A stretch of 64,000 bases of DNA from Flavobacterium psychrolimnae (GTDB lineage: Bacteria > Bacteroidota > Bacteroidia > Flavobacteriales > Flavobacteriaceae). The stretch lies in contig NZ_QNUX01000006.1 of the NCBI RefSeq assembly GCF_003312425.1, positions 62,001 through 126,000 of the forward strand. The letters run 5' to 3'. The notes beneath the pieces were generated by a model. The model was not told the DNA's origin, did no database searches, and saw only the letters and a program-made list of their open reading frames with translations. The number at the start of each line of letters is the position of its first letter. The first letter of the stretch is position 1. The translations under genes were made by a program, and so were the position numbers. Shown here piece by piece: positions 50,435 through 63,758 of the stretch.

Positions 50435-50779
50435 TTATTGTGCTGGATTTGTTGCAGCAGGTGTGTTTTGAGCAGGAGCAACTGGAGTGTTTGCTGCTGG
50501 CGCTGTACTTCCTGTGTTTTCAATAATTTTTGAATCGGTATCACTTAATGTTCCTGTAAAGCTTAAGCTAGAAAGTAAAATAAGTGCAATTAGTATAGTT
50601 GCTAATGTCCAAGTGCTTTTGTCTAAAAAATCAGTTGTTTTTTGTACGCCACCCAGCATTTGAGAACCACCTATTGTAGATGATAATCCACCACCTTTAG
50701 GGTTTTGAACCATGATTACTACGATTAATAGAAAACAAACTATAGTTATTAAAACTAAAAAAATTGAAAATGTGCTCAT
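50435..50779 (-). CDS. secG: Preprotein translocase subunit SecG
   Basis: 114 residues. Two membrane helices flank the conserved NPKGGGLSSTIGG loop and GVQKTTDFLDKSTW. It assists SecYE-driven export. The C-terminal tail of about 30 residues is low-complexity Ala/Pro/Thr/Asn. Its start is 3 nt after the preceding gene's stop, so it is coupled to the TPR gene. Confidence 0.93.
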   Translation of the reverse strand: MSTFSIFLVLITIVCFLLIVVIMVQNPKGGGLSSTIGGSQMLGGVQKTTDFLDKSTWTLATILIALILLSSLSFTGTLSDTDSKIIENTGSTAPAANTPVAPAQNTPAATNPAQ

Positions 50780-50782
50780 TGT

Positions 50783-51634
50783 TTAATTATTATTATGTTG
50801 TAAAATCTTAATATCCGATATGCGGTCTGCAAAGAAACTACTTTTTTCTGGATATTTCAAAATTAATATTTCATAAGCTTGAATCGCTTTTTGATATTTT
50901 TTTTGTTCCAAATAAACGCGGGCTAAAGTCTCTGTCATCAACGAAGAATTGTCCGCTGCATTTAGGTCGAAACTAACGGTAGAAGGTACGCCATGTTTTA
51001 CTGGAGAAATCTTCGGACTCGTTTCAATAAATTTATCAATAAGTTCTATTTTTTTTCTTTTGTCGGCATCTATAATCGGAGTAGGCTCATTTCTAGGTTG
51101 CTCATTTTCTCTTTTGATAGGTTCGGTACGCGAAAGCTGTAGCCATTCTCGGAAGGAATGTTGTTCTTTTTTAGAGAAATCCAACGGTGTTCCAATAGCT
51201 AGTTTTTCTTCAACGGTAATTGAAGTACCTTCTTTTTCAATTGGAGAGGCTTCTTTTATAGAAGTCAGAATCGATTGTTCTAATGTGGTTATTTTAAGTT
51301 CAGACTTTTGTTCAGCAATAATAATCTCACTATCGATTACTTGTATGTCTAAAATTTCGAGTGCTTTTCTATCGTACAGACTTTTATGAATAGAAGTAAA
51401 CGTGTCTGATGTAATGAAATCAAATAAAACCGATCTGTCCGTTGAATAGGCTGCCGTTATCTTTAAAGCAGCATTGTATTTAAAACTATTTTGATTGTAA
51501 AGTCCTTTTAATTGAATCGCTCTGGCACTTTGAAAATATTGAAATTCTTCCAATACTTTTTCCAAAGCTTCCGTTTGCTTTTCATGGATAGCATCGGGTT
51601 TGTTAATCAAGTAAGTATAATCGGTTACGTTCAT
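50783..51634 (-). CDS. TPR-like protein of unknown function
   Basis: 283 residues, no signal peptide or membrane segment. The C-terminus contains one clear tetratricopeptide unit (LARVYLEQKKYQKAIQAYEI). The middle is charged and Glu/Lys/Pro-rich and contains LDFSKKEQHSFREWLQLSRT. It lies between lptE and secG, two envelope-export genes; I can only infer a link. Exact family not recognised. Confidence 0.7.
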   Translation of the reverse strand: MNVTDYTYLINKPDAIHEKQTEALEKVLEEFQYFQSARAIQLKGLYNQNSFKYNAALKITAAYSTDRSVLFDFITSDTFTSIHKSLYDRKALEILDIQVIDSEIIIAEQKSELKITTLEQSILTSIKEASPIEKEGTSITVEEKLAIGTPLDFSKKEQHSFREWLQLSRTEPIKRENEQPRNEPTPIIDADKRKKIELIDKFIETSPKISPVKHGVPSTVSFDLNAADNSSLMTETLARVYLEQKKYQKAIQAYEILILKYPEKSSFFADRISDIKILQHNNN

Positions 51635-51715
51635 AAAGGTTATTCATTTATTTGGTAATTCGTTTATTTGTTCTCCGATTAACCGAATCATCAAATTTCC
51701 GAATCAACACTTCAT

Positions 51716-52219
51716 TTACCATTTAGCTAATGACTCGTTGAAAATATCTTGTGTTATTCTTTCAAAAATATCTTTCAAAGCACTATTCAAGGTTGCACCT
51801 GTCAATTGTTGTTCTGCAGGATAATCATAGAAAAAGGTGAATGGTTTTTCAAAATCATCCACTTCTTTTTTCTTATTGGTAAAACGAACATTCACCCGAA
51901 TCGTCAGACGGTTTTGAGCTGCTCGCTGATCTGCGGTAGCTGTCATTGGGCTTATTCTGTAATCTACAATTTCTCCTTCGTATGACAAATCAGCACCGTT
52001 TTTAACCAAGTTCAAATTGGTTTGGTTCTGAATCAAATCTTGAAGTTCTAATGTAAATGTACGATCAATTCCGGGTTCGATTAACTCCGCATTATTCTGA
52101 AAAAAGCCCACTTGAAATGTTTCGGCGTCAATTTTACCGGTTCCTGTAAAGTTATAAACCGAGCAACTATTGATGCTCAATATAAGTATTGAAAAAAGAA
52201 TAAGTTTAATGTGTTTCAT
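51716..52219 (-). CDS. lptE: LPS-assembly lipoprotein LptE
   Basis: 167 residues. Lipoprotein signal ending SINSC (Cys19), then SVYNFTGTGKIDAETFQVGF and TFTLELQDLIQNQTNLNLVK, the LptE-like alpha/beta fold. It plugs the LptD barrel that places LPS in the outer leaflet. Sequence similarity to E. coli LptE is low; the assignment follows the Bacteroidota family and its typical place beside the sigma-54 activator. Confidence 0.85.
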   Translation of the reverse strand: MKHIKLILFSILILSINSCSVYNFTGTGKIDAETFQVGFFQNNAELIEPGIDRTFTLELQDLIQNQTNLNLVKNGADLSYEGEIVDYRISPMTATADQRAAQNRLTIRVNVRFTNKKKEVDDFEKPFTFFYDYPAEQQLTGATLNSALKDIFERITQDIFNESLAKW

Positions 52220-52311
52220 TTTTTATTTTAAAAATTGCCTCGCTAATTTGCTAAAGTCTGGTTCAAATATATTCATTTTCAATCAAAGACATCTAGGTCT
52301 CGAAAGAAAAA

Positions 52312-53568
52312 CTACAAATCAAATTGCTTGATTTTTCTATATAAAGTCCGTTCAGAAATTCCTAATTCGTCTGCGGCTGCTTTTCGTTTTCCTTTATTTT
52401 TTTCTAATGATTTTTTAATCATTTCAATTTCTTTTTGTTCTAAACGTAAAGTTTCTTCTTCCTCAACGGTTTCTGCAAAAAGATAATTATCATCATGTTC
52501 CTGGTATAAATCCTCATTGTTTTGAGCCGCTATTAATGATGCTCTAGGTTCTTCTTCAAAATCTATTTCACTGTCATTTTCTTTTGAACCGTATATTTTT
52601 TTTATCAAATTCTGATTCGTCTCCTGCACTTTTGAACTTCCGCTTTGAATCAGTTCCAGTGTTAATTTTTTCAAATCATTCAAATCACTTTTCATGTCAA
52701 AAAGTACTTTGTATAAAATTTCCCTTTCAGTACTGAAATCACTTTCGCTTTTTTTGTCTTTTATAACAGAAGGTAAATTGCTTCCCTGAACTGGTAAATA
52801 AGATTGTAATGTCACAGCAGATATATCCCGATTAGTTTCTAAAACTGAGATTTGTTCCGCAACATTTCGCAATTGTCTAATGTTTCCGCTCCAACGAAAT
52901 TTCTGTAATAATTGTACAGCATTATCATCTAGTTTCAAAGGAGGCATTTTATATTTATGCGCAAAATCAGCAACGAATTTCCGGAACAATAAATGAATGT
53001 CGTCTTTTCGATCGCGCAAAGGCGGCAAAGTAATATCCACGGTACTTAAACGATAATACAAATCCTCACGAAATTTCCCTTTTTCGATCGCATCAAATAA
53101 ATTCACATTGGTAGCAGCCACAATTCGGACGTCAGTTTTTTGAACCTGTGAAGAACCTACTTTTATAAATTCGCCATTTTCAAGAACACGTAATAAGCGA
53201 ACTTGAGTGGTAAGAGGTAATTCACCAACTTCATCCAGAAAAATTGTTCCGCCGTCAGCCACTTCAAAATAACCTTCACGAGTTCCTGTTGCTCCAGTAA
53301 AAGCGCCTTTTTCATGTCCAAAAAGTTCACTGTCAATCGTTCCTTCTGGAATGGCTCCACAGTTTACGGCAATATATTTCCCGTGTTTTCTGTGCGAAAG
53401 CGAATGAATAATTCTAGGAATATTCTCTTTTCCAACTCCGCTTTCTCCCGCTACTAATACCGTGATATCAGTAGGAGCAACCTGAATGGCTTTTTCTATC
53501 GCACGATTAAGCTTCGGGTCATTCCCGATAATCTCAAATCGTTGTTTTATAGCTTGAACTGATTCCAT
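52312..53568 (-). CDS. Sigma-54 interaction-domain transcriptional activator (Fis-type HTH)
   Basis: 418 residues from ATG 53568 (MESVQAIKQRFEIIGNDPKL); 13 upstream in-frame codons come from a hairpin sequence and have no family match. It begins directly with the AAA+ domain: Walker A GESGVGKE, GAFTGA loop, Walker B GGTIFLDEVGEL, arginine fingers. The C-terminal Fis helix-turn-helix is KRKAAADELGISERTLYRKI. It lacks a receiver or sensory domain, so activity must be set by level or a partner. A 100-residue acidic linker precedes the HTH. Confidence 0.9.
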   Translation of the reverse strand: MESVQAIKQRFEIIGNDPKLNRAIEKAIQVAPTDITVLVAGESGVGKENIPRIIHSLSHRKHGKYIAVNCGAIPEGTIDSELFGHEKGAFTGATGTREGYFEVADGGTIFLDEVGELPLTTQVRLLRVLENGEFIKVGSSQVQKTDVRIVAATNVNLFDAIEKGKFREDLYYRLSTVDITLPPLRDRKDDIHLLFRKFVADFAHKYKMPPLKLDDNAVQLLQKFRWSGNIRQLRNVAEQISVLETNRDISAVTLQSYLPVQGSNLPSVIKDKKSESDFSTEREILYKVLFDMKSDLNDLKKLTLELIQSGSSKVQETNQNLIKKIYGSKENDSEIDFEEEPRASLIAAQNNEDLYQEHDDNYLFAETVEEEETLRLEQKEIEMIKKSLEKNKGKRKAAADELGISERTLYRKIKQFDL

Positions 53569-53593
53569 TTTATTTTTGTTTAAAGTTTTCTTT

Positions 53594-53635
53594 GTTTCAG
53601 GTTTCAAGTTATCGTGATAACTTTAAACCTGAAAC
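53594..53635. other. Long intergenic hairpin between miaB and the sigma-54 activator gene
   Basis: 20-bp arms (53594-53613 and 53616-53635) pair with one mismatch around a two-base turn (GTTATC-gt-GATAAC). There is no T run. It lies 17 nt after the miaB stop. Confidence 0.6.
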
Positions 53636-53651
53636 ATGAAACAAACTTTTT

Positions 53652-55097
53652 TTAATTCATTTCACTCAAACCAACTGCTTCTCCTTTCAGTGTTCCGCTG
53701 GTGCAAGAAGTAATTCTCACATTTACAAAATCACCAATTTTGTAATTCTCTTTCGGAAAAACTACTGTGATACTTTGTGAATTTCTTCCAGAAAATTCTT
53801 CTGTCGATTTTTTGGAAACTTTCTCTACTAAAACTTCTACCGTTTGTCCAATGAATTCTTCACTGCGGAACCAAGCGTGTTTTTGTTGCAAATCGACAAT
53901 TTCTTGTAATCTTCTTGCTTTTGTTTCTTCTGGAACGTCGTCTTCCATTTTTCTTCCTGCCAATGTTCCTGGACGTTCCGAATATGAATACATATAACCA
54001 AAATTATATTTCACATATTCCATTAAACTTAAGGTATCTTTATGATCTTCTTCAGTTTCTGTTGGGAAACCAGCAATCATATCCTGCGAAATGGAGCTAT
54101 TTGGAATAATAGTTCTGATTTTATCAATCAAAGTCATATATTCTTCACGCGTATGCAAACGATTCATCTCTTTTAGGATTCTATCGCTTCCGGACTGTAC
54201 CGGCAAGTGAATGTGTTTGCAAATATTAGGATGTTTTGCAATCACATGTAAAATACTTTCGTGCATGTCCTGCGGATTTGATGTCGAAAATCGAATGCGC
54301 ATTTTTGGAAAACCAACCGCTACCATTTCCAGTAATTGATCAAAGTCAACCGCAGTAGCTTTTTGCATTTCGGTAGCATTCTCAAAATCTTTTTTCAATC
54401 CGCCGCCGTACCAAAGGAAACTATCCACGTTTTGTCCCAAAAGCGTAATTTCTTTAAATCCTTTGTCCCACAAATCTTGGATTTCTTTCATGATACTTTG
54501 TGGTTCACGGCTGCGTTCACGTCCGCGGGTAAAAGGTACCACGCAAAACGTACACATATTATCACAACCACGCGTGATAGAAACCAAAGCCGTAATTCCG
54601 TTGCTCATCAATCGCACAGGTGAAATATCACCATAGGTTTCGTCTTTCGACAAAATCACGTTAATCGCATCGCGTCCTTCTTCCACTTCTTGCAAAAGGT
54701 TTGGCAAATCTTTATAAGCATCAGGTCCTACAACAAGGTCAACGATTTTTTCTTCTTCAAGGAATTGACTTTTCAAACGTTCGGCCATACAGCCCAAAAC
54801 GCCTACTTTCATTTTTGGATTAATGCGTTTCACCGCATTGTATTTCTCCAAACGTTTGCGAATGGTTTGTTCTGCCTTGTCCCGAATAGAACAGGTATTG
54901 ACCAAAACCAAATCGGCTTCTTCCAGCACTTGCGTGGTATTATATCCGTTTCCAGATAATATGGAAGCTACAATTTCGCTGTCCGAAAAATTCATCGCGC
55001 AACCGTAACTTTCTATAAATAGCTTTTTTGTATTCTCAGGTTTATTCTCTAAAACAAGACTTTCACCTTGTTTACTTTCTTCAATAATCTTTTCCAT
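53652..55097 (-). CDS. miaB: tRNA-2-methylthio-N6-dimethylallyladenosine synthase MiaB
   Basis: 481 residues. Three domains: UPF0004 (IESYGCAMNFSDSEI, NTCSIRDKAEQ and GCMAERL supply three Cys for an auxiliary cluster), radical SAM (CDNMCTFC) and a TRAM domain at the end. It adds the methylthio group to i6A37 of tRNAs reading UNN codons. First gene of the miaB, activator, lptE, TPR, secG transcript. Confidence 0.95.
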   Translation of the reverse strand: MEKIIEESKQGESLVLENKPENTKKLFIESYGCAMNFSDSEIVASILSGNGYNTTQVLEEADLVLVNTCSIRDKAEQTIRKRLEKYNAVKRINPKMKVGVLGCMAERLKSQFLEEEKIVDLVVGPDAYKDLPNLLQEVEEGRDAINVILSKDETYGDISPVRLMSNGITALVSITRGCDNMCTFCVVPFTRGRERSREPQSIMKEIQDLWDKGFKEITLLGQNVDSFLWYGGGLKKDFENATEMQKATAVDFDQLLEMVAVGFPKMRIRFSTSNPQDMHESILHVIAKHPNICKHIHLPVQSGSDRILKEMNRLHTREEYMTLIDKIRTIIPNSSISQDMIAGFPTETEEDHKDTLSLMEYVKYNFGYMYSYSERPGTLAGRKMEDDVPEETKARRLQEIVDLQQKHAWFRSEEFIGQTVEVLVEKVSKKSTEEFSGRNSQSITVVFPKENYKIGDFVNVRITSCTSGTLKGEAVGLSEMN

Positions 55098-55327: not shown

Positions 55328-57856
55328 ATGGCAAAGAATTTAGTTATAGTGGAATCACCTGCAAAGGCAAAAACAATCGAAAAATTTTTAGGGAGTGATT
55401 TTCAGGTAGAGTCCAGTTACGGACATATTGCCGACTTACCATCCAAAGAAATTGGAGTAGATGTGGAAAATGGTTTCAAACCTAAATACGAAGTTTCTGC
55501 TGATAAAAAAGCGTTGGTTACTAAATTAAAAGGACTAGCTAAAAAAGCTGAAATGGTTTGGTTAGCAAGTGATGAGGATCGCGAGGGTGAGGCTATTTCT
55601 TGGCATTTAGCCGAAGAATTAAAATTAGATAAAACCAAAACAAAACGTATTGTTTTTCACGAAATTACTAAAACTGCTATTCTAAAAGCAATTGATAATC
55701 CACGAGAAATTGATTATAATTTGGTTAATGCACAACAAGCGCGTCGTGTTTTGGATCGATTAGTTGGTTATGAATTGTCGCCTGTACTTTGGAGAAAAAT
55801 AAAAGGAGGACTTTCTGCCGGTCGTGTACAATCGGTATCTGTTCGTTTGATTGTGGAGCGTGAAAGAGAAATCCAAAATTTCAAAGCTGTTGCAACATAT
55901 TCTGTTGTTGCTGAATTTACCAATGAGTCTGGAAAAACATTCAAGGCAAAACTTCCAAAAAATTTCAATACTAAAAAAGAAGCCGAAGATTTTTTAAATA
56001 AAAATATAGGTTCAACATATAACGTAGCCGATTTAGAAACGAAGCCTACCAAAAAATCACCGACGGGTCCGTTTACCACTTCGACTTTGCAACAAGAAGC
56101 GGCGAGAAAACTGTATTTGCCTGTTGGAATTACGATGCAACTTGCGCAGCGTTTGTACGAAGCCGGACTTATTACATATATGAGAACGGATAGTGTAAAT
56201 TTATCCAAAGATGCGATGGAAGCTGCTCAGGCTGAAATTATTAAATCCTACGGAAAAGAGTTCTCTAAACCTCGAACTTTTGTCAATAAAAGCAAAGGGG
56301 CACAAGAAGCACACGAGGCGATTCGACCTACGGATATGTCGCGTCACACGGTAGATATCGACAGAGACCAAGCGCGTTTATATGATTTGATTTGGAAAAG
56401 AACGTTGGCTTCGCAAATGAGTGATGCGCAATTAGAACGTACAAACGTGAAAATTGAGGCAAACAACCACGGTGAAATATTCACAGCATCTGGAGAGGTT
56501 TTACTTTTTGAAGGTTTCTTGAAAGTGTACTTAGAAGGTCATGATGACGATGAAGAAGAGCAAGAAGGAATGTTGCCTGCAATGAAAGTCAACGAAAAAT
56601 TACAAAATAATTACATTACTGCGACCGAGAGATATTCTCGTGCTGCTGCAAGGTATACTGAAGCTTCTTTGGTAAAAAAATTAGAGGAATTGGGCATTGG
56701 TCGTCCTTCTACTTATGCACCAACGATTTCTACAATCATCAATAGAAATTATGTAGAGAAAGGAAATCTTGACGGGCAAGAACGTAATTATACGCAATTG
56801 ACGTTACAATCCGGAAAAGTAGGAGAGAAGCTATTGAAAGAAAACACAGGTTCTGATAAAGGAAAATTAGTTCCTACGGACATCGGAACGATTGTTACGG
56901 ATTTCTTGGTTAAGAATTTCGGAAATATTTTAGATTATAATTTCACTGCAAAAGTCGAACAGGATTTCGATGAAATTGCAGAAGGCAATATCGTTTGGAC
57001 AAAAATGATGCAGGAGTTCTATGATAAATTTCATCCAACGGTGAAAGATGTAGAAGCCAATGCAGAAAGAGAAAGCGGTGAAAGAATTTTGGGAACAGAT
57101 CCTAAAACAGGAAAACCAGTTTCGGTTCGTTTAGGGAAATTTGGACCAATGGCTCAAATTGGAGCTGCTGATGATGAAGAGAAAAAGTTTGCGAGTTTGA
57201 TGAACGATCAAAACATTGGAAACATCACTCTAGAAGAGACACTGAATTTATTTTTGTTACCAAAAAACTTGGGTGAATATAAAGGAGAAGAAGTTGAGGT
57301 AAGTAACGGCCGTTATGGTCCTTATATTCGTCACGGCGCTGCTTTCGTTTCTTTGCCAAAAGGTGAAAATCCATTAGATGTAGATTTTGAAAGAGCACAG
57401 GAATTAATCGATGAAAAAGCAATAGCCGATGCTCCAATTGCAGTTTATAAAGGCGAAGGCGTGCAAAAAGGAACGGGTCGTTTTGGTCCTTTTATCAAAT
57501 GGGACGGCTTGTTTATCAATGTAAGTAAGAAATATAATTTTGATAATTTGTCTCAAGCAGACATTGAAGCGTTGATTGAAGATAAATTAAAAAAGAATAT
57601 TGATAAGGTTTTACATAATTGGGAGGACGAAGGGATTCTAGTCGAAAAAGCCCGTTGGGGACGCTCGGTTATTACCAAAGGGAAAATCAAAATTGAATTA
57701 AGTAAAGATGTTGATGCTACAAAATTGACATTGGAAGAAGTTCAGGAAATGATTGCCAAGAAAACACCAGCCAAAAAAGTAGCTGCTAAAAAAGCACCTG
57801 CAAAGAAAGCAGTGGCAAAGAAACCAGCAGTTAAGAAACCAGTAGCAAAAAAGTAA
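55328..57856 (+). CDS. topA: DNA topoisomerase I
   Basis: 842 residues. TOPRIM start LVIVESPAKAKTIEKFLG and SDEDREGEAISWH; catalytic Tyr in GLITYMRTDS. The C-terminus has no zinc-finger Cys sets. It has repeated topoisomerase C-terminal units instead (LGKFGPMAQIG, SNGRYGPYIRHG, GTGRFGPFIKWDG, RWGRSVITKG) and a Lys/Ala-rich tail that would bind DNA. It relaxes negative supercoils. The next gene starts 3 nt after the stop. Confidence 0.96.
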   Translation: MAKNLVIVESPAKAKTIEKFLGSDFQVESSYGHIADLPSKEIGVDVENGFKPKYEVSADKKALVTKLKGLAKKAEMVWLASDEDREGEAISWHLAEELKLDKTKTKRIVFHEITKTAILKAIDNPREIDYNLVNAQQARRVLDRLVGYELSPVLWRKIKGGLSAGRVQSVSVRLIVEREREIQNFKAVATYSVVAEFTNESGKTFKAKLPKNFNTKKEAEDFLNKNIGSTYNVADLETKPTKKSPTGPFTTSTLQQEAARKLYLPVGITMQLAQRLYEAGLITYMRTDSVNLSKDAMEAAQAEIIKSYGKEFSKPRTFVNKSKGAQEAHEAIRPTDMSRHTVDIDRDQARLYDLIWKRTLASQMSDAQLERTNVKIEANNHGEIFTASGEVLLFEGFLKVYLEGHDDDEEEQEGMLPAMKVNEKLQNNYITATERYSRAAARYTEASLVKKLEELGIGRPSTYAPTISTIINRNYVEKGNLDGQERNYTQLTLQSGKVGEKLLKENTGSDKGKLVPTDIGTIVTDFLVKNFGNILDYNFTAKVEQDFDEIAEGNIVWTKMMQEFYDKFHPTVKDVEANAERESGERILGTDPKTGKPVSVRLGKFGPMAQIGAADDEEKKFASLMNDQNIGNITLEETLNLFLLPKNLGEYKGEEVEVSNGRYGPYIRHGAAFVSLPKGENPLDVDFERAQELIDEKAIADAPIAVYKGEGVQKGTGRFGPFIKWDGLFINVSKKYNFDNLSQADIEALIEDKLKKNIDKVLHNWEDEGILVEKARWGRSVITKGKIKIELSKDVDATKLTLEEVQEMIAKKTPAKKVAAKKAPAKKAVAKKPAVKKPVAKK

Positions 57857-57859
57857 AAA

Positions 57860-59011
57860 ATGGAATTTGATTTTCTGAAACCCGTCGATGATGAAATCCA
57901 GGAGTTTATAAACGGATTGACTTCGCAGCAACTAGGAAGTAAAATAGTTTTACATACGAAGGAACAATTTCCAGATCTAAATAAGATTAAAATTGCTGTA
58001 ATAGGCGTTTTAGAAAATCGAGGAGATAAAAAAGCGGTTTCAGATGTAGATTTGATACCTCTTAGGAAAGAATTATACGGTTTGTTTCCTGGAAACTGGG
58101 ATGCTTCAATTGCTGATTTGGGAGATATTGTTGCAGGGAATTCTGTTGCGGACACCTATTTTGCAGTAAAAAAGGTGGTAGCAAGTTTGATTAAGAAAAA
58201 GATCACGCCAATAGTAATAGGAGGTTCTCAAGATGTAACGTACGCACTTTATAGAGCGTATGATGATTTAGAGCAAATGGTCAACTTGGTTTCCATTGAT
58301 GATAAATTTGATTTCGGAAAAGAAAATGAATCCGTTTCGGCATCTTCTTATTTGACAAAAATAATTATCGATGAACCCAATAATCTTTTTAACTATTGCA
58401 ATATTGGATATCAGACTTATTTTAATTCACAGGAGGAAATAGATTTGATTGAAAAACTATTTTTTGATGCCTATAGATTAGGAGAAGTTTCTAATAACAT
58501 TGCTATTTCAGAACCAGTTTTTAGAGATGCTGATTTGGTAAGTATTGATTTGAATTCGATAAAATCATCTGATTCCGGAAATTTTATTTCATTTCAACCG
58601 AATGGTTTTAATGGAAAAGAAATTTGTTCTTTGTCGCGATATGCTGGGATAAGTGATAAAGTATCTTCGTTTGGGATATTCAACCATACTAATTCGGCAC
58701 AAGAATCAGTATTGATTGCACAGATAATTTGGTATTTTATCGAAGGGTTTCATTATCGTTCGAATGAGTATCCTTTTGGGAGCAAAGAGAATTATTTAAA
58801 ATACATTGTTCCATTGGAAGAAGAGGAATTAATTTTTTATAAAAGCGATAAAACGGATCGCTGGTGGATAGAAATTCCATTTATTTCAAATGTTAATAAT
58901 AAATTAAAAAGAAACACGTTATTACCATGTTCTTATGATGAATATTTGATGGCTTGCAATCAGGAATTACCTGAAAGATGGTGGAAAGCTCAAAGAAAAA
59001 ACATCGTTTAG
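57860..59011 (+). CDS. Ureohydrolase-fold protein (formimidoylglutamase/arginase-like), probably not catalytic
   Basis: 383 residues. The arginase-fold segments can be aligned, but the binuclear metal site is degraded: GGDHS is GGSQD (121-125, His to Gln124), DAHxD is DDKFD (147-151, His to Lys149), and SxDxD is SIDLN (His-free; Asp to Asn232). Three of six metal ligands are lost. It is likely to be called formimidoylglutamase by homology, but hydrolysis is doubtful. It sits 3 nt after topA and 128 nt before gldK, suggesting a role tied to gliding/type IX secretion. The role is inferred from context. Confidence 0.75.
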   Translation: MEFDFLKPVDDEIQEFINGLTSQQLGSKIVLHTKEQFPDLNKIKIAVIGVLENRGDKKAVSDVDLIPLRKELYGLFPGNWDASIADLGDIVAGNSVADTYFAVKKVVASLIKKKITPIVIGGSQDVTYALYRAYDDLEQMVNLVSIDDKFDFGKENESVSASSYLTKIIIDEPNNLFNYCNIGYQTYFNSQEEIDLIEKLFFDAYRLGEVSNNIAISEPVFRDADLVSIDLNSIKSSDSGNFISFQPNGFNGKEICSLSRYAGISDKVSSFGIFNHTNSAQESVLIAQIIWYFIEGFHYRSNEYPFGSKENYLKYIVPLEEEELIFYKSDKTDRWWIEIPFISNVNNKLKRNTLLPCSYDEYLMACNQELPERWWKAQRKNIV

Positions 59012-59071: not shown

Positions 59072-59102
59072 TTGTTTTTCTAAAAAATAATAAATAGGTT
59101 TA
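59072..59102 (+). promoter_or_regulatory. Promoter of gldKLMN
   Basis: TTG (59072-59074), 20-nt spacer, TAGGTTTA (59095-59102), one base off the consensus, 36 nt before the gldK ATG. A small inverted repeat ACAGT...ACTGT (59049-59064) lies just upstream. Confidence 0.5.
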
Positions 59103-59138: not shown

Positions 59139-60542
59139 ATGAAGAAGTTCATAGCTTTTACGGCAATTTTGACCCTTTTAATTGGCTGTGGAAAATCAAG
59201 CGATAAAGGAGAACTGGTTGGTGTTAATGGAGGAAAATGGCATCCTGAGAAGCCTTATGGAATGGCATTAATTCCAGGAGGCGCCTTTATTATGGGTAAA
59301 TCAGATGCTGATTTAGCTAATGTTGAAGATGCTCCCACAAAAACAGTTACTGTTCGTTCATTCTATATGGATGAGACGGAAATTACCAATAGTGAGTACC
59401 GTCAGTTTGTTGAATGGGTAAAAGATTCTACAATGAGAGTTCGTTTAGCTATTCTTGCAGATGAAAGTGGTCAAACAGCCAGCACAACTGGAGGTAAAGG
59501 TAAAAATGCAGGAAGCATTGCTGATTATGCATTTAATGATGCAGATCCAGAGAAAATGACAGCATATGATAAGTACATGTACGACAACTATTATAGCGTA
59601 GGTACTGCTGATGATCCTTATGCAGGAAGAAAATTGAATAAAAAGGTGAAATTAATCAAAGATACTAAGTTGTATCCTGATGAATATTACGCTGAAGTGA
59701 TGGATTCGATGTATTTACCTATTGAAGAATCATACAACGGCTTAAGAACTATCGATGTCAATAAGTTGAAATTCCGTTACTCATGGATGGATATTCAGGC
59801 TGCTGCAAAAGCAAAAGTTGGAAGAAGAAAAGATTTCATAAAAACAGAAGAAGTTAATGTTTATCCGGATACTACAGTTTGGATTAAGGATTTTGCTTAT
59901 TCTTATAATGAGCCAATGCATAATGACTATTTTTGGCACAAAGCCTATGGAGATTATCCTGTGGTGGGAGTGAAATGGACGCAAGCTAAAGCTTTTTGTG
60001 CATGGAGGACCTTAAATAAAAATAGCTATGTAAAATCAAAAAAGAAAGGACAAGATTTGATAAACTCTTTCCGATTACCAACAGAAGCCGAATGGGAATA
60101 TTCTGCTAGAGGTGGTCTTGAGTCTGCAACATATCCTTGGGGTGGACCATATACTAAAAATGACAGAGGTTGTTTCTTAGCTAATTTCAAGCCAAACAGG
60201 GGAGATTATGCAGCAGATGAAGCGTTGTATACTGTAGAGGCAAAATCATATGAGCCTAATGGTTATAACCTTTACAATATGGCTGGGAATGTTTCTGAGT
60301 GGACGGATTCTTCGTATGATCCAAATGCTTATGAATATGTTTCCTCAATGAATCCAAATGTTCTTGATGCCTCAAATAAACGTAAAGTACTTCGTGGTGG
60401 TTCATGGAAAGATGTTGCTTATTTCCTACAAGTAAGTACAAGAGACTATGAATATGCTGATTCAGCCAGAAGTTACATAGGTTTTAGAACTGTTCAGGAT
60501 TATATGGGAGTTCAAACCACCGGGAACGGTAAAAAGAAATAA
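59139..60542 (+). CDS. gldK: Gliding motility/type IX secretion lipoprotein GldK
   Basis: 467 residues. Lipoprotein signal ending LLIGC (Cys17). A formylglycine-generating-enzyme-like (sulfatase-modifying factor) fold follows: ALIPGGAFIMGKSDADLANV, DETEITNSEYRQFVEWV, FRLPTEAEWEYSARGG and KVLRGGSWKDVAY. The fold is structural here. GldK and GldN form the periplasmic ring of the type IX secretion system under the outer membrane. First gene of gldKLMN. Confidence 0.96.
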   Translation: MKKFIAFTAILTLLIGCGKSSDKGELVGVNGGKWHPEKPYGMALIPGGAFIMGKSDADLANVEDAPTKTVTVRSFYMDETEITNSEYRQFVEWVKDSTMRVRLAILADESGQTASTTGGKGKNAGSIADYAFNDADPEKMTAYDKYMYDNYYSVGTADDPYAGRKLNKKVKLIKDTKLYPDEYYAEVMDSMYLPIEESYNGLRTIDVNKLKFRYSWMDIQAAAKAKVGRRKDFIKTEEVNVYPDTTVWIKDFAYSYNEPMHNDYFWHKAYGDYPVVGVKWTQAKAFCAWRTLNKNSYVKSKKKGQDLINSFRLPTEAEWEYSARGGLESATYPWGGPYTKNDRGCFLANFKPNRGDYAADEALYTVEAKSYEPNGYNLYNMAGNVSEWTDSSYDPNAYEYVSSMNPNVLDASNKRKVLRGGSWKDVAYFLQVSTRDYEYADSARSYIGFRTVQDYMGVQTTGNGKKK

Positions 60543-60582: not shown

Positions 60583-61230
60583 ATGGCATTATTAAGCAAA
60601 AAAGCAATGAATTTCGCATACGGTATGGGAGCGGCGGTTGTAATCATTGGAGCATTATTCAAAATCACTCATATTGAATTTGGATTCTTAACAGGGAATT
60701 TAATGCTAACAATTGGTCTTGTTGTTGAAGCAGCCATTTTTGCTCTTTCAGCATTCGAACCGGTTGATAATGACTTGGATTGGACTTTGGTTTATCCAGA
60801 ATTAGCTAACGGTCAAGCTAAACCAGCTACTAAAAAAGTGGAAACTCCTTCTGATGCACAAGGATTGTTGTCTCAAAAACTAGATGTAATGTTAAAAGAT
60901 GCTAAAATTGATGGTGAATTGATGGCAAGTTTAGGAAACAGCATCAAAAATTTTGAATCTGCGGCTAAAGGAATTGCTCCTACTGTTGATTCTATTGCAT
61001 CAACAAAAAAATACAGTGAAGAACTAAGTTTAGCTGCTGCACAAATGGAATCGTTGAACAGTTTGTATAAAATACAATTACAAAGTGCTTCCAGAAATGC
61101 TCAAATAAATGAGGAAGTTGCTGAAAATAACTTAAAATTAAAAGACCAAATGCAATCATTGACTTCTAATCTATCGTCTTTAAACAACGTATATGGTGGA
61201 ATGCTTTCTGCAATGAACAATAAAGGATAA
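60583..61230 (+). CDS. gldL: Gliding motor/type IX secretion inner-membrane protein GldL
   Basis: 215 residues. Two membrane helices (about 12-28 and 36-57) and a long cytoplasmic coiled-coil tail. Residues reported as important for proton flow in F. johnsoniae GldL are at the same positions here: Lys27, Glu49 and Glu59. With GldM it forms the proton-driven rotary motor (GldL5-GldM2) that powers secretion and gliding. Confidence 0.96.
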   Translation: MALLSKKAMNFAYGMGAAVVIIGALFKITHIEFGFLTGNLMLTIGLVVEAAIFALSAFEPVDNDLDWTLVYPELANGQAKPATKKVETPSDAQGLLSQKLDVMLKDAKIDGELMASLGNSIKNFESAAKGIAPTVDSIASTKKYSEELSLAAAQMESLNSLYKIQLQSASRNAQINEEVAENNLKLKDQMQSLTSNLSSLNNVYGGMLSAMNNKG

Positions 61231-61275: not shown

Positions 61276-62820
61276 ATGGCAGGAGGAAAACTAACCCCTA
61301 GACAGAAGATGATAAACCTAATGTACTTGGTTTTTATCGCAATGTTAGCACTAAATATGTCCAAAGAAGTATTGTCAGCTTTTGGATTAATGAATGAAAA
61401 ATTTGAAGGTTCAAATACTTCAGCTGAGCAGTCAAACGCTCAAATGTTAGCTGGTTTAGATGCTAAAGCTGCAGAAGCAGGTGGTGAATTTGCGATAGCG
61501 GCAGTGACGGCTCACAAAGTAGAAGTTATTACAAAAAACTTTTACGATTATATTGCAACAATAAAATCTCAAGTTTTACTAGGTACAGAAGTAGATCCTG
61601 AAACTGGAAAATTACCTTACGAGGCAATGGACAAAGGAGATAATATCGATAATTTATGGTTTAGCCCTGCGGGTTATTCAGCTAAAGGGAAAGAAGTAGT
61701 AGCTACGATTGAAAAGTATAAAGCAGATATGAAATTAGCTTTAGGTGATAATAAAAAGTTAGCTCCGATTTTATCCGAGGTTCAAACTAAGTTTAGTTTA
61801 GCAGATGTTAAGAATAAAGACGGTATAGCGATTCCTTATTTAGATTATCATTTTAAAGGTTTTCCCGCTGTTGCCTCTTTAGCAAAATTATCTGCTTGGC
61901 AGAATGATGTTAAAAAAGCAGAATCAGATGTTTACAGTACTGCATTAGGTAAGGCGGCTGTTGCAGCTGCTTCATACAGTAACTATCAGGCTATTGTAGT
62001 ATTAGATAAAAATGCTTATTTTCAAGGAGAGCAAGTTACAGGAAAAGTTGTTTTGGGTCGTTATGACGAGAATACAAAGCCAACTAATGTTACAGGTGCA
62101 AGATTAGATCCAGCAACGGGACAAGCTAAGATTGCTATAACAGCTGGAGGTGTAGGAGAACAAAATATTGCAGGTCAATTTACTTTTGTTGAAGACGGAA
62201 AAACAATTCCTTTAAAGTTCGCTGGAAAATATGTTGTTGTACCAAGACCTAACTCTGCTACAATTTCTGCAGATAAAATGAATGTAGTTTATAGAGGTGT
62301 ATCTAATCCTATGACGATATCATTTGCTGGTATTCCTGATAATGCTGTTAATGCTTCAGCTCCAGGTTTATCAAAGGTAGGTAATGGTAAATACGTTATG
62401 AATCCTGGCGGAGGTAATGAAGTAGTTGTAAGCGTTTCAGGTAAGATGTCTGACGGAAAAGTTGCTAATGATAAAAAAGTATTTAGAATAAAAGGTATTC
62501 CTGGTCCAACCGGTACAATTAGAGGAGAAATGGGAGTTGTTAAAGGTCCTAAATCGAATTTAGAAATTGCTACAATTGGAGCTAAATTAGTAGATTTTGA
62601 TTTTGAAGTAGGTTTGAATGTTGTTGGTTTTAATTTAAAAGTTACTGGTCAGCCTACTGTGGTTGTTTCAGGAAATAGATTAAATGCACAATGTAAAGCG
62701 GTACTTTCAAAAGCAGGAAGAGGAGATCAGGTAACAATCTCTGAAATTAAAACAAAACTTGAAGGCGCAGGAAGCTATTTATTGCCTAGAACTGCTCCAG
62801 TAATTTTTGAAATACAATAA
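61276..62820 (+). CDS. gldM: Gliding motor/type IX secretion protein GldM
   Basis: 514 residues. One N-terminal membrane helix (MINLMYLVFIAMLALNMSKE, from residue 12) with Arg9 just before it, the residue that is reported to face Glu49 of GldL. Four periplasmic domains follow, ending in GAGSYLLPRTAPVIFEIQ. It spans the periplasm and passes torque from the inner membrane to the GldKN ring. Confidence 0.96.
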   Translation: MAGGKLTPRQKMINLMYLVFIAMLALNMSKEVLSAFGLMNEKFEGSNTSAEQSNAQMLAGLDAKAAEAGGEFAIAAVTAHKVEVITKNFYDYIATIKSQVLLGTEVDPETGKLPYEAMDKGDNIDNLWFSPAGYSAKGKEVVATIEKYKADMKLALGDNKKLAPILSEVQTKFSLADVKNKDGIAIPYLDYHFKGFPAVASLAKLSAWQNDVKKAESDVYSTALGKAAVAAASYSNYQAIVVLDKNAYFQGEQVTGKVVLGRYDENTKPTNVTGARLDPATGQAKIAITAGGVGEQNIAGQFTFVEDGKTIPLKFAGKYVVVPRPNSATISADKMNVVYRGVSNPMTISFAGIPDNAVNASAPGLSKVGNGKYVMNPGGGNEVVVSVSGKMSDGKVANDKKVFRIKGIPGPTGTIRGEMGVVKGPKSNLEIATIGAKLVDFDFEVGLNVVGFNLKVTGQPTVVVSGNRLNAQCKAVLSKAGRGDQVTISEIKTKLEGAGSYLLPRTAPVIFEIQ

Positions 62821-62864: not shown

Positions 62865-63758
62865 ATGATGAATGTAAGAAATTTTTTAATCGCTATTATA
62901 TCTATTACGGGAAGTTTTGCGTCATTTGCGCAATCTAATTTGCTTAATGCAAAAACTCCGGACCAAATAGGACTTAAAACTGCCGCACAACTGGACTCGG
63001 ATAATGATAAACCATTAGCTTATGGTTATGTCCACGATAGAGATGTCTTGATGGGAAAGACTACTTGGGAGATTATCGATTTGAGCGAGAAAATTAATTT
63101 TGCTTTGTATTTTCCAATTGACACTGCAAATGTTGGTTCTGATAGAAGGTCATTATATGATGTTTTGACGAAAGCAATGAAAAAAGGTGAAATCACGGAA
63201 GTTTATACTGATAGTTATTTTAACACCAAAAAATCATTACAAGATATTCAAGGTTCATTAACTCGTATCGATACAACTGATGCCGGAAGAGAACAAATTA
63301 ATGCTGGAAATCAAATCTCCGATGAGTACATTTTAAGACAAGATTTATCTGCTCAAGATGTTTCTCAATATAAAATTAAAGGATATTGGTATTTTGATAA
63401 GCGTCAAAGCGAATTAAAATATCGTTTGTTGGGTATTTGTCCTGTAACTCCGGATGTGTACACAATGAACAGTGATGAAAAGGATTATATCGAGTTGTTT
63501 TGGATATTTTTCCCTGCGGCCAGAGAAGTGTTGCATGATGCTAAAGCATTTAACGATAAGAATTCAGCGATGCCTGTTTCATTTGATCAGATATTAAATT
63601 CAAGACGTTTTAACAGTGTTATTTACAAAGAAGAAAATGTGTATGGCGATAGAACTATTGACGAATACATGAAAGATAATGCTCAGAATCAATTGTTAGA
63701 ATCAGAAAGAGTGAAAGATAAAATTCGTAATTTCGAATCTGATATGTGGAATTATTAA
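62865..63758 (+). CDS. gldN: Type IX secretion/gliding protein GldN
   Basis: 297 residues; ATG 62865 or the adjacent 62868. A signal peptide ends SFASFAQS; the mature part contains DRDVLMGKTTWEIIDLSEKI and YWYFDKRQSELKYRLLGICP, typical of GldN. It makes the periplasmic ring with GldK. No gldO paralogue follows, unlike in F. johnsoniae. Confidence 0.95.
   Translation: MMNVRNFLIAIISITGSFASFAQSNLLNAKTPDQIGLKTAAQLDSDNDKPLAYGYVHDRDVLMGKTTWEIIDLSEKINFALYFPIDTANVGSDRRSLYDVLTKAMKKGEITEVYTDSYFNTKKSLQDIQGSLTRIDTTDAGREQINAGNQISDEYILRQDLSAQDVSQYKIKGYWYFDKRQSELKYRLLGICPVTPDVYTMNSDEKDYIELFWIFFPAAREVLHDAKAFNDKNSAMPVSFDQILNSRRFNSVIYKEENVYGDRTIDEYMKDNAQNQLLESERVKDKIRNFESDMWNY

Follow-up and report, generated by a model that had tools for sequence, protein, structure and literature searches.

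Arginase-type enzymes, or ureohydrolases, are binuclear metalloenzymes whose Mn site is held by six His/Asp ligands, and as the reference set we take the arginase residues H101, D124, H126, D128, D232, and D234. Pseudo-arginases as such are already known: in the accessible part of PMC11271267, MetCb of metformin hydrolase is the metal-free pseudoenzyme partner of MetCa, and the two are encoded in one cluster. In the open-licence literature on arginase or formimidoylglutamase together with gliding or type IX secretion system (T9SS) genes, including the accessible part of PMC12635249, no description of the family presented here was found, and the open-licence literature likewise yielded no mutant data on a need for it in secretion or gliding.

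The window, which is the whole stretch of 64,000 nucleotides of Flavobacterium psychrolimnae DNA that was analysed, carries one such gene, here termed ureo.

57860..59011, + strand: ureo, a protein of the ureohydrolase fold with an incomplete metal site, 383 aa, ATG start
57986..58759, + strand: ureohydrolase core of ureo, residues ~43-300 (from VIA-align ranges and Pfam PF00491)
58220..58234, + strand: metal motif 1, GGSQD, residues 121-125; Gln124 replaces a ligand His
58298..58312, + strand: metal motif 2, DDKFD, residues 147-151; Lys149 replaces a ligand His, both ligand Asp kept
58541..58555, + strand: metal motif 3, SIDLN, residues 228-232; Asn232 replaces the second ligand Asp

With a Pfam PF00491 score of 35.9 bits (cut-off 22), the protein belongs to the arginase superfamily by fold. 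Its six ligand columns read Q124, D147, K149, D151, D230, and N232, so that only three of the six His/Asp ligands of a binuclear metalloenzyme are present. The sequence-only reading had given the motifs as GGSQD, DDKFD, and SIDLN, with both ligand His and one Asp gone, and the residue check agreed, leaving three Asp in place. The ureohydrolase alpha/beta fold that it had also proposed was confirmed when an AlphaFold2 model of the whole chain, built from 52 close sequences and of moderate confidence (pLDDT 68.8, pTM 0.68), was compared with known structures. The top VIA-align chain was T. cruzi formiminoglutamase (4myn), with Z 23.9 and rmsd 3.5 Å over 259 residues, covering model residues 21-301, while B. 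subtilis 3m1r gave Z 21.3. The top Foldseek matches were metformin hydrolase chains (E 3.7e-12). Past residue ~313 the model was scarcely covered by any structural match. No membrane-spanning stretch was seen in the window protein, whose highest mean hydropathy over 19 residues was 1.03, and values above 1.6 occurred in 6/104 rows of the wider alignment described below. The fold, the ligand loss, and the lack of a membrane stretch together point to a cytosolic pseudo-ureohydrolase.

The ligand columns were then compared in two sets of relatives. For the closer set, the best 80 of 440 encoded relatives were taken from a scan of named genomes; by their titles, 68 were from Flavobacterium and 12 from elsewhere (Flavobacteriaceae/Bacteroidetes, one Chitinophaga, and one Rhizobium bin). 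In all 81 close sequences, counting the window and the best 80 of 440, motif 1 read GG[ST]QD, and neither the ligand-place His of motif 2 nor the second Asp of motif 3 was present in any (0/81 each). Hence, the His and Asp losses are no local mutation. The wider alignment comprised 104 rows, namely the window and 103 loci hand-chosen at 1 to 7 per family from 62 Bacteroidia families; two rows (L163 and L258) are one gene of genome G356, leaving 103 distinct genes. The 18 comparison proteins were weaker matches of the same profile searches together with two other arginase-family proteins of the window genome. Four ligands were found in 18 of the 104 rows, three in 58, two in 10, one in 14, and none in 4, and the comparison proteins carried six (14 proteins) or five (4 proteins). 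A pseudoenzyme would be contradicted by same-locus homologues that keep their ligands; these were sought in this alignment, and none of the 104 rows had five or six ligands. At the first ligand position, 58 rows have Q, 18 have H, 10 have N, and 18 have another residue or a gap; the second ligand His was kept in 4/104 and the last Asp, in motif 3, in 5/104. D147, D151, and D230 were retained in 86, 80, and 87 of the 104 rows, respectively. Nearly all ligands were gone in f2, from the window's own order, and in most of f5, which consists of diverged and partly shortened copies.

Judged from the aligned residues, loss of the binuclear Mn site is a trait of the whole family. The earlier pseudoenzyme claim is therefore strongly supported as far as this site is concerned, and loss of activity is what we infer from it. 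The three retained Asp may leave weak or single-metal binding possible. On this basis ureo could still be an enzyme: either one metal is held by Gln124, Asp147, Asp151, and Asp230 in a mononuclear or remodelled site, or the conserved E218, R222, R206, and C256/C357 form a new active site that needs no metal. The retention of the three Asp, and of the first His in 18/104 rows, is consistent with such a site, as are PDB titles that name an N114H variant and Mn2+2 forms of T. cruzi formiminoglutamase, an enzyme in which Asn114 presumably occupies the His ligand place while Mn is still bound. A surviving enzyme nevertheless appears improbable, since hardly any row keeps the second His or the last Asp, and the protein persists in f2 and most of f5 despite the loss of nearly all ligands there.

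The family also has fixed residues of its own, which fall partly in the core and partly beyond it.

58511..58525, + strand: signature EPxxR of ureo, residues 218-222, defined by residue conservation
58772..59008, + strand: C-terminal domain of ureo, residues 305-383, predicted beta-beta-beta-beta-alpha-alpha, with F326, R334, W335, W336, C357, and Y362 conserved

E218 and R222 were each present in 0.99 of the 104 ureo rows, as against 0.17 and 0.06 of the 18 comparison proteins. Conservation of at least 0.99 in the ureo rows was reached by E218, R222, W291, F326, W335, and C357. Residues kept at ≥0.88 in ureo and ≤0.22 in the comparison proteins were R206, E218, P219, R222, C256, Y261, and W291 in addition to the six listed above for the C-terminal domain. 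If selection shifted from metal catalysis to another function, ligand loss combined with newly fixed residues is the pattern to be expected; it would be compatible with a new active site as well. The C-terminal extension (~305-383) lies outside the ureohydrolase core and had been overlooked in the sequence-only reading. Modelled alone, the last 81 residues (303-383) gave a beta-beta-beta-beta-alpha-alpha arrangement with pLDDT 82 and pTM 0.71. A Foldseek search of this domain against the PDB found nothing at E <= 0.001, its best hit reaching E 0.83, and the best VIA-align Z was only 3.4; given these weak scores, no fold relation is claimed. A sequence search with the domain returned three weak matches, the best at E 0.0014, to chains named Scone-E. 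Mean column conservation was equal in core and C-terminal domain, at 0.52 each. A profile of the domain found it inside ureo in 13/15 genomes, the remaining two being without ureo. Four extra matches of this profile, all weak (E 0.009 to 0.38) and either short or interrupted by stops, were set aside.

The best NCBIfam match of the window protein was the HutG model TIGR01227, whose cut-off of 229.15 bits lies far above the 52.1 bits obtained, so that the protein falls outside that family. The earlier expectation that automatic annotation would call the protein formimidoylglutamase accordingly failed for NCBIfam. Among 27 members of the broader profile A2, 26 matched TIGR01227 at E <= 0.001, which is an E-value threshold and not the model cut-off. 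The window genome encodes two other arginase-family proteins, L002 and L003, both with all six ligands; the other arginase-family genes lie on contigs C1 and C22, and ureo lies on C20. L003 shares its contig with hutH and scored 89.9 bits with the HutG model, itself below the cut-off. With two ligand-complete proteins, one of them on the hutH contig, the histidine pathway need not rely on ureo. It is hardly credible that ureo is itself an ordinary formimidoylglutamase (HutG) or an agmatinase: the best named match, the fold, and the presence of hutH in the genome would fit, but the score is far below the cut-off, three of six ligands are lost, and L003 is the better HutG candidate. Reading ureo as formimidoylglutamase would put a false enzyme into metabolic models. 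In the accessible part of PMC11278836, formiminoglutamase was the sole step of histidine degradation found in a Mariniflexile genome, and that gene may be a mis-call of the ureo family.

The ligand-complete L002 and L003 would also be available as partners if ureo, like MetCb/MfmB in metformin hydrolase, were a metal-free subunit paired with an active arginase-family protein in a hetero-oligomer. The top Foldseek matches to metformin hydrolase chains and the precedent of MetCb agree with such an assembly. However, the single metCa/metCb cluster (PMC11271267, accessible part) contrasts with the separate contigs in the window genome, where an active partner gene in the same cluster, as in a pair of the metformin hydrolase type, was not found. 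Nor do the added C-terminal domain and the almost universal occurrence look like those of a catabolic enzyme, and a role as half of such an oligomer is very unlikely.

In the window's family, represented by about one genome per genus, ureo was found in 196/199 genomes, including 165/165 of good quality, and the window genome has one member. F. johnsoniae also carries a member, L075. At class level, the broader profile A2 found it in 325/346 genomes of ≥95% completeness; the G787 match (E 2.3e-4) probably represents a different arginase-family protein, and G860 was scored negative by elimination. Beyond the class, matches in a draw across the phylum reached at most 76.3 bits, and the 13 that were fetched and aligned keep five or six ligands. 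In a quick maximum-likelihood tree, 75 ureo rows formed one clade against 18 others (SH-aLRT 100). The median dN/dS was 0.049 across 69 comparisons, all against the window sequence and with dS below 1.5, which indicates strong purifying selection on ureo in the vicinity of the window. The use of gldK as a dN/dS yardstick was dropped, as only six pairs were comparable and their median of 0.399 probably reflects wrong starts. Besides the main copy, second and weaker matches of the ureo profile were seen at G608:C128:6772-7725 (113.9 bits) and G634:C21:21373-21945 (67.9 bits), which are possibly paralogues or other arginase-family proteins.

The genes flanking ureo in the window are as follows.

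55328..57856, + strand: topA, DNA topoisomerase I, ending 3 nt before ureo; the conserved upstream partner
59072..59102, + strand: possible gldK promoter, TTG-N20-TAGGTTTA, an imperfect match to the consensus
59139..60542, + strand: gldK, T9SS ring lipoprotein, NCBIfam 599 bits (cut-off 350)
60583..61230, + strand: gldL, T9SS motor, above the NCBIfam cut-off
61276..62820, + strand: gldM, T9SS motor, above the NCBIfam cut-off
62865..63758, + strand: gldN, T9SS ring subunit, above the NCBIfam cut-off

The sequence-only reading had placed ureo beside the T9SS genes and had missed topA, 3 nt upstream. The gldK gene starts 127 nt past the ureo stop codon. The promoter candidate was derived from the Bacteroidetes consensus, TTG-N17-23-TAnnTTTG, and the loosened pattern occurs at 4 places within 1.5 kb. 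Same-strand topA upstream and gldK downstream of ureo were present in 80/80 of the closest loci (best 80 of 440 relatives). Across the wider alignment, gldK lay on the same strand within 3.5 kb downstream in 43/104 rows from 30/62 families, which establishes a conserved genetic linkage to core T9SS genes; the other 32 families were unlinked in these rows, and 61/104 rows had no linked gldK. A narrower view, in which the gldK link was local and restricted to f1, f6, and f7, was overturned by this wider draw. The gene porP immediately followed ureo in 42 of the 104 rows, although not in the window, and ureo and gldL were at most 4.1 kb apart in 56, from 17 families, of 71 class genomes (among the matches listed). 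Across the linked rows, the upstream neighbour of ureo belonged to a single homologous group in 28/30 families, identified as topA by the window's member, while the gene after gldN fell into 27 groups in 37 linked rows. The uniform upstream group and the varied genes past gldN therefore delimit a conserved block, topA - ureo - porP - gldK - gldL - gldM - gldN.

Several other arrangements were observed around these loci. A second gldN-like ORF follows the T9SS operon in L187, L192, L224, L237, L241, and L246, and in L253 both porP and gldM are present in a second copy. The window (50435-55097) and f7 (L159, 1226-5699) share five conserved genes that diverge from topA; by Pfam they include LptE and a MiaB-type radical SAM protein, and the others are unnamed or putatively a SecG-like protein and a sigma-54-type regulator. 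In three of the five f5 rows the diverged ureo is convergent with murF, which comes after a gldJ-like gene (in L155, 410 bits, below the GldJ cut-off of 458). The copies of L155, L157, and L175 in f5 are shortened to 277, 335, and 278 aa and highly diverged; an OmpA-domain gene flanks them on the opposite side, and porP precedes gldJ in L155 and L175, a second T9SS/gliding neighbourhood of the family. In the unlinked families the neighbours were an epimerase, an S13 peptidase, 3HCDH, a glycosyltransferase, a SIS domain, an oxidoreductase, and a PheS-type gene, with no cross-family pattern seen. In f3 (L148, L149), ureo and an NAD-dependent epimerase gene are divergently oriented, and such a gene also lies near ureo in the f4 loci L152, L153, and L182.

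Spacing within the block was uneven. Where topA adjoined ureo upstream on the same strand (45/104 rows), the median gap was 16 nt, with 26/45 gaps of at most 20 nt, including overlaps of 1 and 4 nt, as against a median ureo-to-porP gap of 140 nt (43 rows, at most 20 nt in 2/43); as every ORF was taken to begin at its first start codon, the true gaps may be larger. The tighter spacing to topA would be expected if ureo were translated with topA and served TopA or a housekeeping function such as DNA topology or nucleotide/amino acid sensing, the T9SS genes being merely an old neighbour. In the same direction, topA stands beside ureo without a linked gldK in 6 rows (f2, f65, f68, f75, f82, and f89), of which f82 still has porP after ureo and both f82 and f89 have a nearby contig end, and genome G545 retains ureo without GldL or GldM. 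Conversely, gldK stays with ureo without an adjacent topA in 4 rows (f6, f67, f91, and f100, the last with topA 1.8 kb away). As both partial linkages exist, neither topA nor gldK is clearly favoured as the partner. A tie to TopA is further weakened by the 55/104 rows in which neither gene is directly linked to ureo and by the contrast between topA, which is essential and general, and ureo, which was undetected in 21/346 genomes, of which 7 are also without GldL and 3 more belong to T9SS-poor f11. A TopA or housekeeping role, the main alternative to a T9SS one, seems unlikely to us.

Co-occurrence with T9SS was examined in the 346 class genomes. Both ureo and GldL were found in 323, ureo only in 2, GldL only in 14, and neither in 7; ureo was thus undetected in 14/337 GldL-bearing and present in 2/9 GldL-less genomes, and 335/337 GldL matches exceeded the GldL family cut-off. 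The association was significant by Fisher's test (p 3.5e-8) with genomes treated as independent and kinship left uncorrected, but five of the seven genomes with neither are one family, f11. An intact ureo with its C-terminal domain was found without a GldL or GldM match in G545 (99% complete). In G624 (95% complete) ureo was likewise found without GldL or GldM, where an assembly gap is possible, and G187 (95% complete) has ureo but no GldL match. In the window's own family, three of four GldL-negative genomes were also without ureo; as these three are 88% complete and ureo and gldL are neighbours, an assembly gap explains the joint absence equally well. The porP locus was read in 6 of the 14 GldL-only genomes, and no match to the ureo profile was found there even at E 10; the contig of one of the six, G795, ends at porP and so does not bear on the absence of ureo. 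In these 14 genomes ureo is lost or beyond detection. At loci lacking ureo, the gene before porP was dprA in L264 (G732) and hemD in L267 (G379) and L269 (G556). The accessible part of PMC6994654 reports for ppGpp-less P. gingivalis that PGN_1678, a hypothetical gene with the tag after porP, was up 3.44-fold along with porP-porN (2.12 to 2.83). PGN_1678 was not counted as a P. gingivalis ureo, the genome closest by PorM among 42 (G732, 45% identity) having no ureo match and dprA upstream of porP.

With exceptions in both directions, ureo does not appear to be a core part of T9SS. The type IX link proposed in the sequence-only reading is upheld by a gene order conserved in 30/62 families and is tempered by the nearer and tighter topA and by the genomes that have GldL without ureo or ureo without GldL. 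A T9SS role, as suggested by gene order and co-occurrence, is plausible. The reading that we somewhat favour is that ureo is a cytosolic pseudoenzyme or binding protein of a Bacteroidia-wide family, with T9SS/gliding biogenesis or control as its most likely client and as an accessory rather than a core component. According to this model, an ancestor of the arginase/HutG type would have lost its binuclear Mn site, and the family would have gained the beta-beta-beta-beta-alpha-alpha C-terminal domain. The protein would no longer hydrolyse guanidine or amidine bonds and would work by binding, as an adaptor or regulator, through the EPxxR, W291, and RWW...PC...DY residues, its putative client being the biogenesis or regulation of the type IX secretion/gliding apparatus. 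It probably does a new, non-arginase job. A bolder version, which we offer tentatively, is that ureo is a dedicated cytoplasmic factor for T9SS/gliding that stands at the head of the porP-gldKLMN operon class-wide, its dead site serving as a ligand- or partner-sensing pocket; it would then couple motor biogenesis to the cytosolic state, for example through guanidine/arginine-type ligands or, through topA, DNA supercoiling.

Compared with known systems, ureo shares the core fold of the HutG/ureohydrolase superfamily (PF00491; 4myn, 3m1r) over ~260-280 residues and finds its best named sequence match there. It differs from HutG in having 3/6 ligands replaced, an extra C-terminal domain, a different neighbourhood, and an NCBIfam score far below the cut-off. 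The T. brucei arginase-like protein, which has no metal site, is also a non-catalytic arginase homologue; it differs in being eukaryotic, and it is not known to be tied to a conserved operon. Relative to the T9SS core operon, porP-porK/gldK-L-M-N, ureo lies just upstream on the same strand in 43/104 rows and, to our knowledge, is not among the known T9SS components. Unlike the T9SS core, it has no membrane stretch, and in some lineages with T9SS no copy was detected. Should it act on T9SS, the rotary motor would have a cytosolic partner that has gone unrecognised. The metformin hydrolase subunit MetCb/MfmB is likewise an arginase-fold protein whose metal ligands are gone and which serves as a binding partner (PMC11271267, accessible part). 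Its gene clusters with that of the active partner, whereas ureo has no active partner gene nearby and has added the C-terminal domain. The family deserves attention for its presence in 325/346 class genomes, its strong selection near the window, and its frequent position between topA and the T9SS motor genes, combined with the lack of any family description in the literature searched. What is new relative to the known pseudo-arginases is a family of arginase-fold pseudoenzymes that has a C-terminal domain and a conserved position in the genome of its own.
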